From: a virus
Virus record (IMG/VR): IMGVR_UViG_3300047548_000314
Location: 1-64,000 of that record
DNA length: 64,000 bases
Reading direction: 5' to 3' (one strand)
This document shows positions 10,890-19,141 of this stretch, piece after piece. The translations under genes and the position numbers were made by a program. The notes under the pieces were generated by a model. That model was not told the origin of the DNA. It made no database searches and saw only the letters and a list, made by a program, of their open reading frames with translations. Positions within the stretch are counted from its first letter, which is position 1. Each line of letters opens with the position of its first letter.

Positions 10890-11591
10890 ATGACTATTTA
10901 TTATGTATATGCCTACCTAAGAAAAGATGGAAGCCCTTACTATATCGGCAAAGGCAAGGATGATCGTGCTTCAAGAGGCAGGCACGATGTTGCTATACCA
11001 AATGATCCTAGTCGTATTGTATTTATGGAAACCGGGTTAACAAATGTGGGCGCTTGTGCATTGGAACGCCGGTATATTCGTTGGTACGGTAGAAAAGATA
11101 TCGGAACCGGCATACTGCGTAACAAAACCGAAGGCGGCGATGGCGGAAAGACGATCAGTACTGAACATCGCCGCCGGATCAATAAACAGTTATGGGAGGA
11201 TGGCGCATTCAATAATAGACCTGCACCATCCAATGCCACAAGAGAAAAAATATCAAATAAGTTAATGGGCCGGCCCGCCCCGTTAACGGAAGCCGGACGA
11301 GAACGAAAACGAAAAGCAACGCTATTGGCCTGGAGCGACCCCGAACAGCGCAAAACCCGAATAGAAAATATTAAAAAAGCAAGATCACTTAACCCTACTA
11401 CACACACTGCGGAAACTCGTAAAAAAATAGCAGACGCATTAAAGAATCGCAATACTGACAGAAATATATATTATAATGATCCTAGGCACTGTGCTTGCTG
11501 CGGCACGGAGCTTGCATATGAAAAACGAAACAACAATACTTGTAGTAGGTCGTGTAGTAAAGTTCTATATCACCGAACCACGATCAAATAA
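10890..11591 (+). CDS. GIY-YIG homing endonuclease with zinc-binding tail, 233 aa
   Basis: The nuclease core reads [23 protein letters not shown], with the Glu/Arg helix [13 protein letters not shown]. It is followed by NUMOD3-like segments ([24 protein letters not shown]). The C-terminus has four cysteines (CACCG and CSRSC), probably a zinc ribbon for DNA binding. Its 3' end overlaps the 44-aa gene on the other strand, which may be the interrupted original neighbour. Late expression from the leader at 10821. Confidence 0.9.
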
Positions 11592-12122: not shown

Positions 12123-12252
12123 GTGTTTTCCTATAATTTTCGTCAAATGTTAATTTGCAAGGTGACCAGTTACAAGCGTGACTAACTAGTTTGTTGCAAA
12201 TATTACACTTAATTTTAGTCTCGGTTTTTGAGGATTTTGTCAATAAGCCCAT
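12106..12252 (-). CDS. Possible Cys4 zinc-binding protein overlapping clpP, 48 aa
   Basis: This frame starts inside the last codons of clpP, shifted by one base, and runs past its end: [20 protein letters not shown], then HACNWSPCK. It has a C-x2-C pair and a C-x4-C pair, as in small zinc-ribbon proteins. A full AGGAGG ribosome site lies nine bases before its ATG, within clpP codons. Translation would be coupled to clpP. Moderate confidence because only sequence pattern supports it. Confidence 0.5.
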
Positions 12253-12805
12253 AGTCTAGTGCCTCCTGCGCACTCATAAAATAATCTCGTTCCATATCCT
12301 TGCTTAGGTCCTCAAAAGTCTTACCCTTGCTGTTATGTGTAACATAGATTTCAGTAAGATTCTTCTTCATTGCGAGGATTTCACGAACCTGAATTTCCAT
12401 ATCAGTTGCTTGGCCCCTTGCACCACCGCTTGGCTGGTGAATCATATGGCGAGCATTAGGTAGCATATAACGCTTTCCTGCTGCACCGGCTTGAGCAAGC
12501 AATGAACCCATACTGCAAGCCTGTCCCATAACAATAGTGGTAACATCAGGCTTGATAAACTGCATGGTATCGTAGATTGCCATTCCAGCAGTTACACTAC
12601 CGCCCGGGCTATTAATATATAGGCTAATATCCAAACTAGGATCTTCTGATTCCAGGAAAAGTAATTGGGCAACGATTAAGTTTGCCATCTGATCGTGAAC
12701 TTCGCCCTCAAGCAAGATAACACGTTCGCGTAATAGTCGGCTATAAATGTCATATGAACGTTCACCTCGGCTACTCTGTTCAATGACAATGGGTACTAGT
12801 GACAT
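12215..12805 (-). CDS. clpP: ClpP serine protease subunit, 196 aa
   Basis: This is a full-length ClpP, the barrel-forming protease that degrades proteins fed to it by ClpX or ClpA. The catalytic triad is visible: S98 in GQACSMGS, H123 in [10 protein letters not shown] and the Asp in KDMERD (about D170). The oxyanion segment SPGGSV and the final [15 protein letters not shown] are typical. It is one of four proteostasis genes in 12.2-17.6 kb. Most T4-like phages lack it. Confidence 0.95.
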
Positions 12806-12872: not shown

Positions 12873-14414
12873 TTACCTTTTCTTTCTTCCTACGTCACCG
12901 ACTGCGCGAGGTTCGGTTGGCTCTTGTCGCTTGCCGGCACCCGTTGCTATCGCTGCTGCCTGGTTTTTGAATTCTTTTTCGCTAGGGATACGCTTGTCTC
13001 TACCCACTACTTCATTGTCGCCGGCACTATCCGTGTCTTCAGGCTTGCCTTTACCCTTGTCAATTTTGAATGTAAAGTTACCTTTAATACCTGTGCTATA
13101 GTAGGTTTTGCCAGCACTTAGATAGACGCCTTTGATACTATCGCCGGGATATACAGTATCAAACTCACTTAATGTCCACTGTCCTTTACTTTCTTTGGCT
13201 TTAGTATATACCTGTACCAATGCACCATTGTTGAGAATATCAGCTGCCGCTTTACTGAAATTAGTATGTTCGTTGACTTCTTCTGCGGCTTTATGTGCTA
13301 CAGCAGCTAATAAGTGATAGTAAAAATTAACACTTTCTGGATTATCTGTCTTTCTGCTTTGAGCTAGTTTAACTAAATTGTCAGATAAACCCATATTCTC
13401 AAGTTCACTCATTGGTTGAGGACGCATTTCTTTAAATAAGCGAATCTTGTTAGCATCTTCTCTATCAATGATATCATACTTTAATCCAAGATAGATAGGG
13501 GCTAATGCCTGTCCCTTCTTTTGAATCTCTCGCATAATTTCGATAGTATCTTCATATTTTTCAATCAATTTTCTGCCAGCATCAGTTTCACTTAATTCAT
13601 TAACGCTATTGATGAGGTTACTAGTGCTTGCAGTGGCACCTTTTCCTCCCTTAGTGCTGACTTTAATTGACTTGCCTTCACTATTAGTCATTATACTGTC
13701 ACTTAACCCAGCAGTCTTGCTATCGTCAAATGATATTACAGTACCTTCAAACGATCCTCCTAAAAAGATTTCAGCAGCCTCTCCCGCATTACCAGTATAT
13801 TGACCTCTTTGTAATGCAATGGGCTGTAATATCTCGCAAAAATAATCTCTGAATCCTGTAAAACTAAAATCCTTAGGAGCCTCAAATGTCATTGGCAATG
13901 GTTCGCCGGCAGCTATATTATATGCTACTTGATATAGTGGATTATCAGTGCCCAAACTATTGGCTAATTGATCTAATATATCTTTTACGGTAAGATCAAG
14001 CTTATCAGTTAATAAATCTTGCGGACTTAATCCAGACTGTATCTTAGCAGCAGCTTTACCAGAAAAGCGATAGTCTCCGATTTGGTTAGGAACATAGTTA
14101 TCAGTTACAGAAGGTTTGATACTCTCTAGATATCTACCAAATAAGACTTCACCTTCAGGACTTTCAAAGCTGGCTATAGCGAATCCACCTGATCTACCTG
14201 AACGAGTATTAAGCCATTGCACGTTTTCCCCTGCTTGTTGCAGTGCTTGGTCCATTTCTTCTGGTGATAATTTGCCGCCGCCTTCAGGGAAAAACTTGAT
14301 ACCATTAAAGATTAATTCATTTCCGTTACTGTCACGGAACACATCACCTTGTTTGCGATTTGCAAGTCCGGTGCTTTCATTGATTGTTTCTAGTTTATCT
14401 AAGATATCACGCAT
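12873..14414 (-). CDS. Hypothetical protein, 513 aa, possible head-internal protein
   Basis: The N-terminus (MRDILDKLETINES) resembles the short Met-basic-hydrophobic-Glu peptide shared by the putative head proteins at 52.6-63.6 kb. The middle has a conserved-looking block (KSIKVSTKGGKGATASTSNL) of unknown meaning and the C-terminus is basic. No enzyme motif is recognised. There is no ribosome site. A late promoter (14419-14426) ends four bases before the ATG, so the late mRNA is probably leaderless. Confidence 0.65.
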   Translation of the reverse strand: MRDILDKLETINESTGLANRKQGDVFRDSNGNELIFNGIKFFPEGGGKLSPEEMDQALQQAGENVQWLNTRSGRSGGFAIASFESPEGEVLFGRYLESIKPSVTDNYVPNQIGDYRFSGKAAAKIQSGLSPQDLLTDKLDLTVKDILDQLANSLGTDNPLYQVAYNIAAGEPLPMTFEAPKDFSFTGFRDYFCEILQPIALQRGQYTGNAGEAAEIFLGGSFEGTVISFDDSKTAGLSDSIMTNSEGKSIKVSTKGGKGATASTSNLINSVNELSETDAGRKLIEKYEDTIEIMREIQKKGQALAPIYLGLKYDIIDREDANKIRLFKEMRPQPMSELENMGLSDNLVKLAQSRKTDNPESVNFYYHLLAAVAHKAAEEVNEHTNFSKAAADILNNGALVQVYTKAKESKGQWTLSEFDTVYPGDSIKGVYLSAGKTYYSTGIKGNFTFKIDKGKGKPEDTDSAGDNEVVGRDKRIPSEKEFKNQAAAIATGAGKRQEPTEPRAVGDVGRKKR

Positions 14415-14418
14415 CTTG

Positions 14419-14426
14419 TATTTATT
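14419..14426 (-). promoter_or_regulatory. Late promoter, leaderless type
   Basis: AATAAATA followed by four bases and then ATG at 14414, which places the expected late start at or next to the start codon. Confidence 0.6.
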
Positions 14427-14446: not shown

Positions 14447-14454
14447 CATAAATA
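14447..14454 (+). promoter_or_regulatory. Late promoter CATAAATA
   Basis: This reads right, toward the two plus-strand genes at 14487 and 14826. It is divergent from the late promoter at 14419. Confidence 0.5.
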
Positions 14455-14486
14455 TAAAAAGAAACATAGCAAATAGGAGAAAAACT

Positions 14487-14825
14487 ATGGAATTTCTAAT
14501 CGCTGCGGTTATTGTTGTTATTGCAGCATATATCGGTTACAAGTATTATCAAGCCAAAACTGCTATTGCACCAGAACCTACTATCCTTGAACTTAGAGAA
14601 ACGACAGAAGTTCTTGTTCAGCCAGTTCAAGCTAAGGCAGATGTTGCAAAGGTAGAAACAACAATAAAGCCAAAGACACCTAAAGCAGAGGTTGCAGAAA
14701 AGCGCACTCGTAGTAAGGGCAAGTTCGTAGGGGATGATAAGTCTACCCCGGACGTAAACGAAGCCTTCAAGGACGGGAAAGCTCCACCAAAGAAGAAAAA
14801 GCCAAACATCAAAATTGCTAAGTAA
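14487..14825 (+). CDS. Single-pass membrane protein with Lys-rich tail, 112 aa
   Basis: Residues 3-21 (FLIAAVIVVIAAYIGYKYY) form one membrane segment at the N-terminus. The rest is a Pro/Lys/Glu-rich, probably unstructured tail ending KAPPKKKKPNIKIAK. AGGAG precedes the ATG. The stop directly abuts the ATG of the next gene (TAAATG), so the pair is co-translated. Topology suggests the tail faces one compartment and recruits a partner; this is inferred. Confidence 0.75.
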   Translation: MEFLIAAVIVVIAAYIGYKYYQAKTAIAPEPTILELRETTEVLVQPVQAKADVAKVETTIKPKTPKAEVAEKRTRSKGKFVGDDKSTPDVNEAFKDGKAPPKKKKPNIKIAK

Positions 14826-15524
14826 ATGCAAGAGATTGGCTTTGATATCATTAGTGACTTATATTTGACCCCGGATGAAAGTTTCAGTTGGGAAAACAAA
14901 GCCACTAGCTTATATTGTATAGTTGCCGGGAATATTAGCAAAGATTTGCGCACTGTGATACAAGTGTTGATACATTTGTCAACTAAGTATCAGGGTGTAT
15001 TCTTTGTTCCCGGCAGACTTGAATATGAAGAATGCGAGAACATCGTAAAACGAACAGAAGAACTTAATGCTATAGCATTAGGAATACCCAACATTTGTAT
15101 GTTACATCAAAATGTTGTGGTTATTGATGGGATAGCACTATTAGGAACAAATGGCTGGGCTAACATTGAAAACAATCTAACAGCTAATAACATTATTATG
15201 TCTGCTGCTAGATATGAAGATTTTTCTTATTTAACCAAATGTTTGACTAAACTTCAACGTCACTTAGACGTTAAAAAGATAATTTTGATAACAAATGCAA
15301 TACCGAATATTGATTTATATTTCGGTGAAGTGCCAGAAAATCTATCTGACCAAATACCCTTGTGTGAAATATTACAAGCTGATACTGAACACAAAGTTAC
15401 ACACTGGGTATTTGGTACTTATAACAAGAATGTTGATGTAAACTCAAACAACATTAACTACTTAAACAATCCATATAATCATAGTATGCCATACTATGCA
15501 AAAAGATTGTCAGTATTAATTTGA
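14826..15524 (+). CDS. Degenerate calcineurin-like phosphoesterase, 232 aa
   Basis: The order of motifs follows the metallophosphoesterase fold, but the metal-binding residues are replaced: ISDLY for the usual DxH, VAGNIS for GD, VPGRLEY for GNHE, ITNAIPN for the THxxP region and WVFGTYNKNVD for GHTH. The protein should keep the fold and lose catalysis, perhaps acting as a binding protein. It is coupled to the membrane protein before it and converges on clpS with a 9-base overlap. Confidence 0.7.
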   Translation: MQEIGFDIISDLYLTPDESFSWENKATSLYCIVAGNISKDLRTVIQVLIHLSTKYQGVFFVPGRLEYEECENIVKRTEELNAIALGIPNICMLHQNVVVIDGIALLGTNGWANIENNLTANNIIMSAARYEDFSYLTKCLTKLQRHLDVKKIILITNAIPNIDLYFGEVPENLSDQIPLCEILQADTEHKVTHWVFGTYNKNVDVNSNNINYLNNPYNHSMPYYAKRLSVLI

Positions 15525-15824
15525 CTCAGCTTCAACCTTGACTTGCAAAGGATAGCCCTGGGCTCTTGCTTCAAGCGTAACTTCAATGCCCTTCTGCTCT
15601 GCAATTTCATATGGAAGAATCGCAACAACTGCACTACCGTTTTCGTGAATGTCAACTGTAATCTGTGACGCGGTGTCAGGGTTATAATTGAAAAAGTCAA
15701 TCAATGTAGCAACTACAAATTCCATTGAAGTGCGGTCATCATTTAGATAGATGATCTTGAAAAGAGGCGGTTCCTTCAAAGAAAGGTTCGGCTTGATCTT
15801 ATTCTTAATTTCAGCATTAGGCAT
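15516..15824 (-). CDS. clpS: ClpS adaptor, 102 aa
   Basis: The sequence PPLFKIIYLNDDRTSMEFVV matches the ClpS core, including the N-degron pocket residues N-D-D and T-x-M. The second pocket residue His is present in VDIHENGSA. ClpS delivers N-end-rule substrates to the ClpA (or ClpC) N-domain. The ATG at 15824 has AAGGAAA upstream; an upstream ATG at 15872 lies inside the leader hairpin. No clpA is in this window, so it may work with host ClpA. Confidence 0.9.
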   Translation of the reverse strand: MPNAEIKNKIKPNLSLKEPPLFKIIYLNDDRTSMEFVVATLIDFFNYNPDTASQITVDIHENGSAVVAILPYEIAEQKGIEVTLEARAQGYPLQVKVEAESN

Positions 15825-15841
15825 TAGAGTTTCCTTATATA

Positions 15842-15870
15842 GTGCTTGCGGGTACCATACCCGCAAGCAC
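15842..15870 (-). promoter_or_regulatory. Leader hairpin of clpS (may also terminate hsp20 mRNA)
   Basis: A perfect 12-bp stem (15842-15853 with 15859-15870) and a 5-base loop. It begins five bases after the late promoter at 15876-15883, so it would form at the very 5' end of the clpS mRNA. It also lies just after hsp20 and could act as its terminator. Confidence 0.75.
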
Positions 15871-15875
15871 ACTTT

Positions 15876-15883: not shown

Positions 15884-16330
15884 TTACTTTTCGTAGGTAA
15901 TAGCAATCGTTTTGGGCTTTTGCTCTTCAGGAACTTGTCGTTCAAGTCCGATCTTGAGAATGCCGTTTTCAACCTTTGCACCGATAACTTCAACGTAATC
16001 AGCAAGCGTGAATGTGCGACCGAATGTGCGGGCACTAATACCACGATGTAGGTACTCAAATTCCCTATTATACTCAATCGTTTGTTCGCCTGAAATAGTT
16101 AGAACATTCTTTTCAACCGTGATGTTGATATCACCTTCGCGGAAACCAGCAACAGCTAACTCAATTTCGAATGAGTCCTCGCTATATTTTATAATATTGT
16201 AAGGTGGATAATTGACGCTGGTTTGTTGTTGGTTAGCTCGCATCAATTCATCAAAGATGTTGTCAAATCCGATACCGAACTTATGAATTGATGGGATATC
16301 GAGGGAACGAAGGCTTAATTCTCTAGTCAT
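15884..16330 (-). CDS. Hsp20 small heat-shock protein, 148 aa
   Basis: The alpha-crystallin domain spans about residues 45-140, with the family motifs FEIELAVAGFREGDINITVE, LTISGE and an A-x-VENGILKIGLER end. Small heat-shock proteins hold unfolding proteins for refolding by ATP-driven chaperones. IbpA of E. coli is of similar length. Together with ClpP, ClpS and ClpX it forms a phage proteostasis set. An AAGGAGA site precedes the ATG. Confidence 0.92.
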   Translation of the reverse strand: MTRELSLRSLDIPSIHKFGIGFDNIFDELMRANQQQTSVNYPPYNIIKYSEDSFEIELAVAGFREGDINITVEKNVLTISGEQTIEYNREFEYLHRGISARTFGRTFTLADYVEVIGAKVENGILKIGLERQVPEEQKPKTIAITYEK

Positions 16331-16436: not shown

Positions 16437-17636
16437 TCAATACAATGATTCGGGAGCATTAACTAAATCTTCATCGATGATAAGTTGAACAAGCCCTCGT
16501 TCTTTGTATAACCTTATGTGGAACATATGAGGCATCAATACTTTTTCAATTTCAGTATGTAATCCTCTTGCTCCGGTCTTTAGATCAATGCAGTTTTGAG
16601 CAATTTTTCTTAATGCACCATCAGTGAATACTAAGTCAATTCCGTCGACGGAGAACAAATATTTGTATTGTTCAATGAAACTATTCTTAACCTCAGTCAA
16701 CACTGACACCAATTGGTCTAAAGTGAGTTCTTCTAAAGTGATAGTGGTAGTAAATCGTCCGATAAACTCAGGAATCATACCAAATCTTGTTAAATCGTCT
16801 GGAGTAACTTTCGAGATATCGACTGCTTCATCTTTGTTTTTAACTACAGCGCCAAAACCAATTGCACTGCTTTCAGTTCTAGTTTTGATAATCTTGTCAA
16901 GTCCCACGAAAGCCCCGCCAGCAATAAACAATATATTTTTGGTATCTACCTCAATATTTTCTGCTTGCGGATGCTTCCTCTTTCCGGCAGGATTGACTCT
17001 GCACTTAGTTCCTTCTACTAATTTAAGCAATGCCTGCTGCACGCCTTCTCCGCTAACGTCTCTTGTAATGCTAGTATGTTCGCTCTTACGAGCAATCTTA
17101 TCAATTTCGTCAATGAATACAATGCCGCGCTCTGCCAAAGATACATCATAGTTGGCCAAGCTTAATAGCATATTGATCATACTTTCTACGTCTTCGCCTA
17201 CATACCCAGCTTCGGTAAGGTTAGTTGCATCAGCTACTACGAAGGGAACGTTGAGATACTTTGCTACGCTACGTGCAAGCAATGTCTTACCAGAACCAGT
17301 TGGTCCAACGAACAATACGTTGCCCTTCTGTATGTCAAGGTCCTTAGGAGGATTATTAATGCGTTTATAGTGATTGGCAATAGCAACTGCTAATACTTTC
17401 TTAGCGTTATCCTGTCCTATAACGTGCTTATCAAGGTGATCTTTGATGCTATATGCATCAAACATCTTCTGTTCATCAAGTTTGATTGGTTTAACGTTCT
17501 TTTCTTCTATTACTAGTTGATTGCACAAATCAATGCAAGTGGTGCAGATAGCAACATCTTCACCTACGATTAATTTTTTAACTTCATCTTTGTGGCTCCC
17601 GCAGAAAGAGCAGTGATGTAATTTTTTATCAGACAT
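16437..17636 (-). CDS. clpX: ClpX unfoldase ATPase, 399 aa
   Basis: This is a full-length ClpX, the AAA+ ring that unfolds substrates and threads them into ClpP. The N-terminal zinc domain has C9, C12, C31 and C34. Walker A is GPTGSGKT (111-118), the pore loop is GYVG (144-147) and Walker B is IVFIDE (172-177). The IGF loop that docks on ClpP is intact (259-261). All parts needed for a working ClpXP with the phage ClpP are present. Confidence 0.95.
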
Positions 17637-17650
17637 ATGTTTACTTATTA

Positions 17651-19141
17651 CTAACTATTTTTGCTTAGATATTCTTCGATTTGATCACGCTCGTTATCAG
17701 ACAATAACTCTGGATCATACTCGCCCGAATCAAGTTTGGTTATCAAATGACGAATATATTCTTCGTCAAATAAAGTTTGTTCTTTGTTTATTTCAAACCA
17801 TCTATCACCACCAAACTTATATGCTCGGTTAGGAAGCATATCTACTCTAACAAACGTATCACCTTTTTTTGCGAATTTAGGAAATTCTATTCCAAAGTTT
17901 GCATTAGACAGAGTTTCATCGGGTTTTGCGATAAACAATTCAGGATGCATTTCTTGTAATGCACTCTTGCTCACGCTTTTCCCCTGATATTTTATATATC
18001 CGGTGTCGGTTTCTTGAAGTGTTATTCCTTCAGTTCTGATTTCCGGTGCGGCTTCGGGCTGTCGTGCCTCTCCCCTAATGTGTCCCTCAATCTTTTCTTC
18101 TTGTCCTGGTAGTTCCCCATCAATTTCATCATCAGAGGGATCGTGTATCTCCAGCTCACTCGGTCGTAATTCTCCAACTGGTTCAACAACCACCGGCTGT
18201 ATCTCAATTTCAACATTAGGCTTCTCCTTAACCTCGTAAGGAGTTTCGGTTAATACATCATCAAGAACTTCATCTAAGAACTTACTAGTATCTTCGTCAA
18301 GTTTATTGGTTGAGAACGTTTCTTTAAACTTATCCTCTTCCTCTTCTTCCTCACGCTTTTTCAAGTCTTCTTCTAACCACTTATAACTACTTTGTGCAGC
18401 AAGAACTAATGTAAGAGCTAGTGGATCAAATACAAACACTATAAGTATGATTACCCATCTAACCGCTCTTTCAAGTAAGTTACTATCAGGATTATCACCA
18501 TAGATCAATGCTGCTATATATTTGATTGGGCCAACTTCTGCTTCTACCTTACGAACCTGGGCACGAATGGGAGCAGCGTCTTCGTTTAATTTAGCTATCG
18601 TTTCTTGATCGGCTGCGATTTCAGCTTGGATTCGGGCACGTTCTTTCTTCTGCTGATTTCTAACTGAAACAGCACGATTTGCACCCTTATCGTCAGTTGT
18701 TCTACCTAGAAGCTGGTCAACTTGCGCATCCATCTGTTGTAGTGCTTTGCGGTTAGCATCTATGTTTTCTTTAGCAGTTTGAATCTTAGTATCATATACT
18801 GCTACTTTAGCGCCAACATCACCACTGACCAATGTTTGGTCACTGTGTGCTTTACTCAAGAAACCAAATATACCCATACTAGTTAGAAACGCAAGAGCTA
18901 CTACAGCAGGAACAAGATATAGTTTAAGATTCCATCCTGCTCTATTCCAATATCTATGTAACCAAACCGTAGTTACAACTTTGGCGAGTTCTAGGGAACC
19001 ACCCATAATGATGATAGGGATAACAGCAGCAGCAAATATTGCTATTAATCCCTGTATACTGTAATAAGCCGCTATTGCGCTAAGACTAAGTGCAACCAAT
19101 AAGGTTAATGTTGCAAAACTGAATACTTTTCTAAAATTCAT
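17651..19141 (-). CDS. Membrane protein with coiled coil and acidic tail, 496 aa
   Basis: Three hydrophobic segments lie in the first 110 residues and one near residue 230 ([20 protein letters not shown]). Between them is a long charged coiled coil (about 120-220). The C-terminal half is acidic and Pro/Glu-rich, then folds again at the end ([18 protein letters not shown]). No enzyme motif is visible. A late promoter ends four bases before the ATG and no ribosome site is present, so the late mRNA is probably leaderless. Confidence 0.75.

Follow-up and report, generated by a model that had tools for sequence, protein, structure and literature searches.

In the window, which is the whole 64-kb stretch of DNA analysed here out of an 83.8-kb IMG/VR virus record, a gene for a small membrane-anchor protein (112 aa; 14487..14825, + strand) is followed directly by a gene for a pseudo-metallophosphoesterase (pseudo-MPE; 232 aa; 14826..15524, + strand), a protein that has kept the metallophosphoesterase (MPE) fold and has, with near certainty, lost the metal ligands of that fold. 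A sequence-only reading of this DNA had described a dead enzyme of the MPE type that is linked to a membrane protein, and the predicted fold, the ligand loss and the conservation of the partner all support that description well. The two genes very probably act together, and a scaffold or adaptor role for the pair is rather likely. More tentatively, the pair would be a membrane-tethered pseudoenzyme scaffold or adaptor placing substrates or the phage Clp machinery in late infection.

The window is a genome fragment from an uncultivated huge phage, most probably a relative of T4. This assignment follows from its gene content—a phage DNA polymerase, rIIA, an ATP-dependent DNA ligase, ClpP, ClpS, Hsp20 and ClpX—from the contigs carrying pseudo-MPE homologues, which reach up to 524 kb, and from its ClpP, which among cultured phages comes closest to those of the jumbo phages Atu_ph07 and Phosso (71–72% identity). 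The pseudo-MPE family, carried by huge freshwater phages, is frequent in uncultivated huge phages and missed by Pfam: progressively wider profiles recovered 13, then 46 and then at least 251 loci in IMG/VR. The cultured phages searched contained no family member, only distant intact MPEs, and a pattern scan of 84,980 bacterial and archaeal genomes found none at its sensitivity. With the family absent from the genomes scanned and the pair matching no PADLOC defence family, a host defence gene can be ruled out, as can a sequencing error or frameshift, an open reading frame of about the same length being present in dozens of independent contigs.

Membership of the pseudo-MPE in the MPE superfamily is seen in both fold and descent, with a beta-alpha-beta sandwich and the five motif loops in order. 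No credible Pfam family score was obtained for the window's protein, Pfam Metallophos matched none of 78 family members, and a search of the PDB by sequence alone returned no MPE; the PHROG 1649 profile, annotated 'metallo-phosphoesterase', matches at E=6e-8 over most of the length. AlphaFold2 run with 78 sequences gave a model with a pLDDT of 92.1 and a pTM of 0.90, the deeper alignment having raised the pLDDT to 92 from the 70 reached with only 10 sequences. Foldseek aligned this model with MPEs of the PDB, namely PptH (E=1e-7) and also Dbr1, purple acid phosphatase, Mre11 and GpdQ, in a list that likewise holds the non-enzymatic members GAP50 (3tgh, rank 10) and Vps29 (8ttd, 6xs7), and among viral models it placed MPEs or metallophosphatases with the best matches (E=3e-12 to about 5e-12). 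The fold predicted for the protein is thus that of an MPE and not an unrelated one, and the five motifs named in the sequence-only reading all align with those of intact phage MPEs, ISDLY corresponding to SDLH, AGNIS to AGDI, PGRLEY to PGNHEY, ITNAIPN to VTHHAP and WVFGTYNKN to WxxGHxH. Taken together, the profile match, the predicted structure and the alignment rule out a chance resemblance to MPEs.

Of the eight positions that bind metal in active MPEs, the window's pseudo-MPE has lost the ligand at seven, where Y13, L65, N157, T198 and N200 each stand in place of His, N36 in place of Asp and R64 in place of Asn. The earlier statement that each metal ligand is replaced accordingly holds for these seven and fails for D11 of motif I, which is retained here and in 113 of 114 distinct pseudo-MPE sequences. 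Across these 114 sequences the bridging Asp is always Asn (N36), position 65 is never the His of GNH, and the pattern of active enzymes (D-x-H / GD / GNH[ED] / H / GHxH) is not found; a single one of the eight ligands is left in 82 sequences and more than three in none. Conserved positions of the pseudo-MPE include E66 (112 of 114) and K201 (107 of 114) as well as D204 and N215. Stray single histidines, 11 at position 13, 16 at position 157 and two each at positions 198 and 200, look like leftovers from a time when the ancestor was active. Judged by these residues, the pseudo-MPE is almost certainly devoid of phosphoesterase activity.

Uniform ligand loss, a median dN/dS of 0.25 over 156 pairs (0.22 for the nearby Hsp20 gene) and the conservation of the old loops mark the pseudo-MPE as a fixed family trait rather than a product of decay, a family that has lost its catalytic residues throughout and yet evolves under purifying selection being what is expected of a pseudoenzyme under selection. 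The former active-site loops are more conserved than the remainder of the protein (3.41 versus 2.66 bits; permutation p=0.0003), a difference that persists when they are compared with other loops only (p=0.008), and D11, N36, E66, P160, K201 and N215 are nearly invariant in the family. Purifying selection and pocket-loop conservation rule out a decaying pseudogene. The Asn, Glu and Lys now fixed in the old site suggest a re-purposed pocket, in which we infer that the Lys occupies the former metal site.

A tree of 16 sequences places the pseudo-MPEs together on a single long-stemmed branch, whose closest neighbours are the intact MPEs of Atu_ph07 and Phosso, and a single ancestral loss of metal binding would be the simplest reading of this topology. 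The search for homologues with intact ligands that had been proposed from the sequence did find such proteins: the MPEs of Atu_ph07 (gp267, YP_009611932) and Phosso (XYS97399), detected by the A3 profile at E=8e-11 and 2e-11, are the closest active homologues and share with the pseudo-MPE an F-x-W element, a GxNxW strand, VTH-x-x-P and a VNN turn. They differ from it in having all metal ligands and a greater length, and their genes adjoin those for glutaredoxin and DNA polymerase I instead of clp genes, with no membrane-anchor partner annotated beside them. The MPEs of Asteriusvirus 121Q (gp461) and PBECO4 (gp108), which belong to PHROG 1649, are homologous as well and also lie between DNA ligase and ClpP, but their ligands are all intact and they are without a membrane-anchor partner. 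Of 17 long contigs checked, 15 encode an intact MPE of about 280 aa at another place, often 4–17 kb away, its motif set having been read directly in the inspected loci and one paralogue (L122) matching Pfam PF00149 at E=9e-9; none was found in the window's own 83.8-kb fragment or in a few other long fragments, all of them incomplete. Since most of these phages have an intact MPE elsewhere, enzymatic activity need not come from the pseudo-MPE gene.

The partner is as constant as the pseudo-MPE itself. Among 79 distinct loci, 75 are testable in that their DNA extends far enough upstream of the pseudo-MPE, and in all 75 a small + strand open reading frame of the same architecture ends directly before it, the two genes overlapping or standing close together in most loci; in the window the stop codon of the one adjoins the start codon of the other (TAAATG). 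The window's partner consists of an N-terminal transmembrane helix MEFLIAAVIVVIAAYIGYKYY, a low-complexity K/A/P/E/V linker and a C-terminal KKPNIKIAK. A transmembrane helix begins the partner in 41 of the 75 loci and a short segment such as MLDFLKRLFGF in the other 34, segments of the latter type having a high helical hydrophobic moment (mean 0.45, at a mean 84th percentile of shuffles). Since transmembrane and amphipathic anchors replace each other, membrane attachment appears to be what matters. The membrane protein with a Lys-rich tail noticed directly upstream is thus conserved, the anchor being an amphipathic helix instead of a transmembrane one in about half of the homologues, and the position of the pair on the strand opposite to its neighbours likewise holds against the conserved neighbours in all loci examined. 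Partner tails contain 22% Ala, 20% Lys and 14% Pro, often with APYKVE/P, and terminate in a KPKxxVAK-like peptide in 45 of 75 loci; a search of the partner against phages gave no match, probably owing to low complexity and divergence.

In several huge phages the Lys-rich tail of the anchor includes one or two calcium repeats of the dockerin type, DVNKDGKVDxxD (L005:1911-2234, L133:5673-5990, L038:1312-1599, L052:5546-5941 and others), and that of L005 is recognised as a type I dockerin by Pfam Dockerin_1 (PF00404; E=1.2e-6, 29 bits against a cut-off of 22.9). The repeat DxNxDGxxxxxD is absent from the window's own partner, in which residues 78-95 (window 14721-14790), GKFVGDDKSTPDVNEAF, resemble GKFVKDDPATPENEAWEGG of the L105 anchor, a short common motif.

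Upstream of the anchor gene stand a T4-late-promoter-like box, CATAAATA (14447..14454, + strand), and an AGGAG ribosome-binding site (14475..14479, + strand), most of the aligned upstream regions likewise showing GGAG at this distance. The T4 late promoter reads TATAAATA, with TAAATA as its core. In 69 of 74 loci TAAATA lies no more than 60 nt ahead of the partner gene, where shuffled sequences would lead one to expect 12.6, and it clusters 20–28 nt before the start, whereas upstream of the pseudo-MPE it is found at 9 of 79 loci, near background; with the motif before the partner and not before the pseudo-MPE, both genes look like one late operon. By comparison with the T4 consensus, the box would be a working late promoter. 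A second late-type box, AATAAATA (14419..14426, - strand), precedes the divergent gene for a 513-aa protein, which has the motif upstream in 45 of 50 loci. TAAATA is also present upstream of the genes for a 496-aa membrane protein, SprT and S21 and of about half of the ClpS genes; it is barely enriched upstream of Hsp20 and not enriched upstream of ClpX or ClpP. The spacing of TAAATA about 10–14 nt from the start codon in the 513-aa (window 14412-14426), 496-aa and SprT-like genes may point to leaderless or nearly leaderless late mRNAs, and the homologue of ribosomal protein S21, present in the cluster at 41 loci (e.g. L135:5463-5681), has the motif at a fixed distance upstream in 41 of 41.

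Around the pair, the gene order over the 79 loci, where misses are mostly contig ends, runs from ClpP, often through the 513-aa protein and an SprT-like protease, to the pair on the opposite strand and on to ClpS, Hsp20 and ClpX. In the window the neighbours on both sides lie on the - strand. ClpP (12215..12805, - strand; Pfam CLP_protease, E=1e-82) is present at 64 of 79 loci and the conserved divergent 513-aa protein (12873..14414, - strand) at 50 of 79, the latter scoring above threshold with no Pfam, PHROG, PADLOC or NCBIfam family. The convergent ClpS adaptor gene (15516..15872, - strand; Pfam ClpS, E=8e-24; 77 of 79 loci) overlaps the end of the pseudo-MPE gene, as is usual for these gene ends, by 4–23 bases across the loci, and is followed by the small heat-shock protein Hsp20 (15884..16330, - strand; Pfam HSP20, E=8e-19; 78 of 79 loci) and the ClpX unfoldase (16437..17636, - strand; Pfam AAA_2 and zf-C4_ClpX; 70 of 79 loci). 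The converse test, which started from phage ClpS and covered its closest relatives only, found the pseudo-MPE at 79 of the 80 closest ClpS loci, the remaining one stopping at a contig edge.

Other members of the cluster were recorded alongside these. In some phages a 384–387-aa protein with a similar start and a C-terminal GDVGRKKR-like end replaces the 513-aa one; a full-length phage DnaK (630 aa) lies between Hsp20 and ClpX in 15 loci (e.g. L079:3264-5153, L077:7572-9461); and the 496-aa membrane protein (window 17651-19141), with an N-terminal hydrophobic region, an acidic tail and weak similarity to DUF4407 (E=0.002), stands beside ClpX in 52 of 79 loci. An open reading frame that by eye resembles a GIY-YIG homing endonuclease occupies window 10890-11591 (+ strand), related ones being found at different points of the cluster in other phages. 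Two records named 'Acinetobacter phage MD-2021a' (L255 and L257; CAKLQF020000008 and CAKLQF020000005) show tig-clpP-clpX and clpS-clpA arranged as in bacteria and seem to be bacterial contigs under a wrong phage label.

Because of this fixed place between ClpP and ClpS-Hsp20-ClpX, a membrane-bound Clp adaptor or scaffold is the most likely reading of the pair. The ancestor from which a large clade of T4-related huge phages descends would have lost metal binding in a single event, with the inactivated fold retained as a platform for binding proteins or peptides. The partner would anchor in the inner membrane and display a flexible, positively charged tail, presumably on the cytoplasmic side, while the pseudo-MPE would bind either this tail or some third protein. 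The resulting complex, both parts of which would be co-produced late in infection from one promoter, would serve the phage Clp system at that stage. The tie to Clp function is itself tentative, somewhat more so than the scaffold reading as a whole: the pair lies on the strand opposite to the Clp genes, the lack of TAAATA enrichment at ClpX and ClpP means that timing may differ, and shared ancestry within one phage clade can keep genes in a fixed order without a functional reason. Its narrowest form, in which the inactivated MPE and a swappable membrane anchor make up a dedicated membrane-tethered adaptor for ClpXP-ClpS proteolysis, is doubtful, if possible.

Only a little less plausible than that narrow form, and still unlikely, is a membrane-bound scaffold of late infection that would serve virion assembly, DNA or nucleoid tethering or lysis timing, its adjacency to clp genes being inherited gene order. 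The T4-late-type motif would suit such a role, as would rIIA, which lies near the pair in the window, and the strongly Lys/Ala-rich tail, which is like the DNA-binding tails of the histone H1 type. The Pseudomonas phage PA5oct (Arenbergviridae) points the same way, as it shares the phage Clp/Hsp20 gene order (ClpX-S21-Hsp20-ClpS) but is without the pair, having instead FtsH and an FtsH-interacting membrane protein close downstream, so that the Clp block does not need the pair. Against this scaffold outside the Clp system, the pair holds its place beside ClpS and Hsp20 while DnaK, S21, SprT and the homing endonuclease vary between loci, and no virion or lysis gene is its constant neighbour in the 79 loci.

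The sequence-only reading had suggested a decoy or sensor of cyclic-nucleotide signals in anti-phage defence, and a metal-free pocket holding a nucleotide or phospho-ligand uncleaved could indeed act as a decoy, sponge or sensor, for example by blunting a cyclic-nucleotide defence of the host. Many MPEs act on cyclic nucleotides, and a small ligand might still be bound by D11, N36, E66, K201 and N215 of the near-invariant pocket, to which P160 also belongs. Jumbo phages have been proposed to carry counter-nucleotide enzymes of the MPE type (PMC7824862), in a survey that mentions phage ClpP, ClpS, ClpX and Hsp20 together with active MPEs and in which the word 'inactive' is absent. The proposal nevertheless fares poorly and is improbable, as this is a phage gene with a late-type promoter motif and a membrane tether, locked in position to the proteostasis genes of the Clp/Hsp20 cluster; PADLOC assigned no defence family to the pair, no defence or counter-defence genes occur among its neighbours in the 79 loci, and an intact MPE, which most of these phages possess, would suit such a purpose better.

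Several MPEs dimerise, and the pseudo-MPE might be the regulatory subunit of a heterodimer with the intact MPE of the same phage, which the frequency and proximity of that paralogue on long contigs would allow; this is quite improbable, as no operon is shared with the intact MPE and none turned up in the window's own or the few other incomplete fragments mentioned above. A divergent enzyme using a different metal site or no metal is the least probable reading of all: the strongly conserved pocket loops and their new, near-invariant Lys/Glu/Asn set speak for it, but the chemistry of the superfamily is two-metal catalysis, and no member of the family retains the bridging Asp or the His of GNH.

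Dead MPE scaffolds are known from eukaryotes, and we know of none described in phages; literature searches, too, found no phage pseudo-MPE. The B subunits of eukaryotic replicative DNA polymerases have an inactivated MPE fold retained as a scaffold subunit but, unlike the phage pseudo-MPE, are large nuclear proteins in polymerase complexes. A further eukaryotic case, GAP50, is found in Plasmodium and Toxoplasma and carries its own transmembrane segment. In this protein an MPE/purple-acid-phosphatase fold serves as the membrane anchor of a machine (PDB 3tgh). The phage pair would likewise tie an MPE fold to a membrane, but through a separate tether. The Vps29 subunit of retromer uses the MPE fold as a metal-independent protein scaffold on membranes (PMC3101248) and is among the structures matched by Foldseek, but it is eukaryotic, has no close sequence kinship to the pseudo-MPE, keeps a vestigial capacity to bind metal and joins the membrane via other subunits. 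Should the link to Clp prove true, the pair would show how phages steer their own proteolysis to the membrane at a late stage of infection, and the ClpP/X/S and Hsp20 cluster, whose purpose in huge phages is still guessed at, would gain a role that can be tested. If the adaptor reading is correct, it would be a phage counterpart of scaffolds of the Vps29 and GAP50 type and an undescribed class of Clp adaptor.
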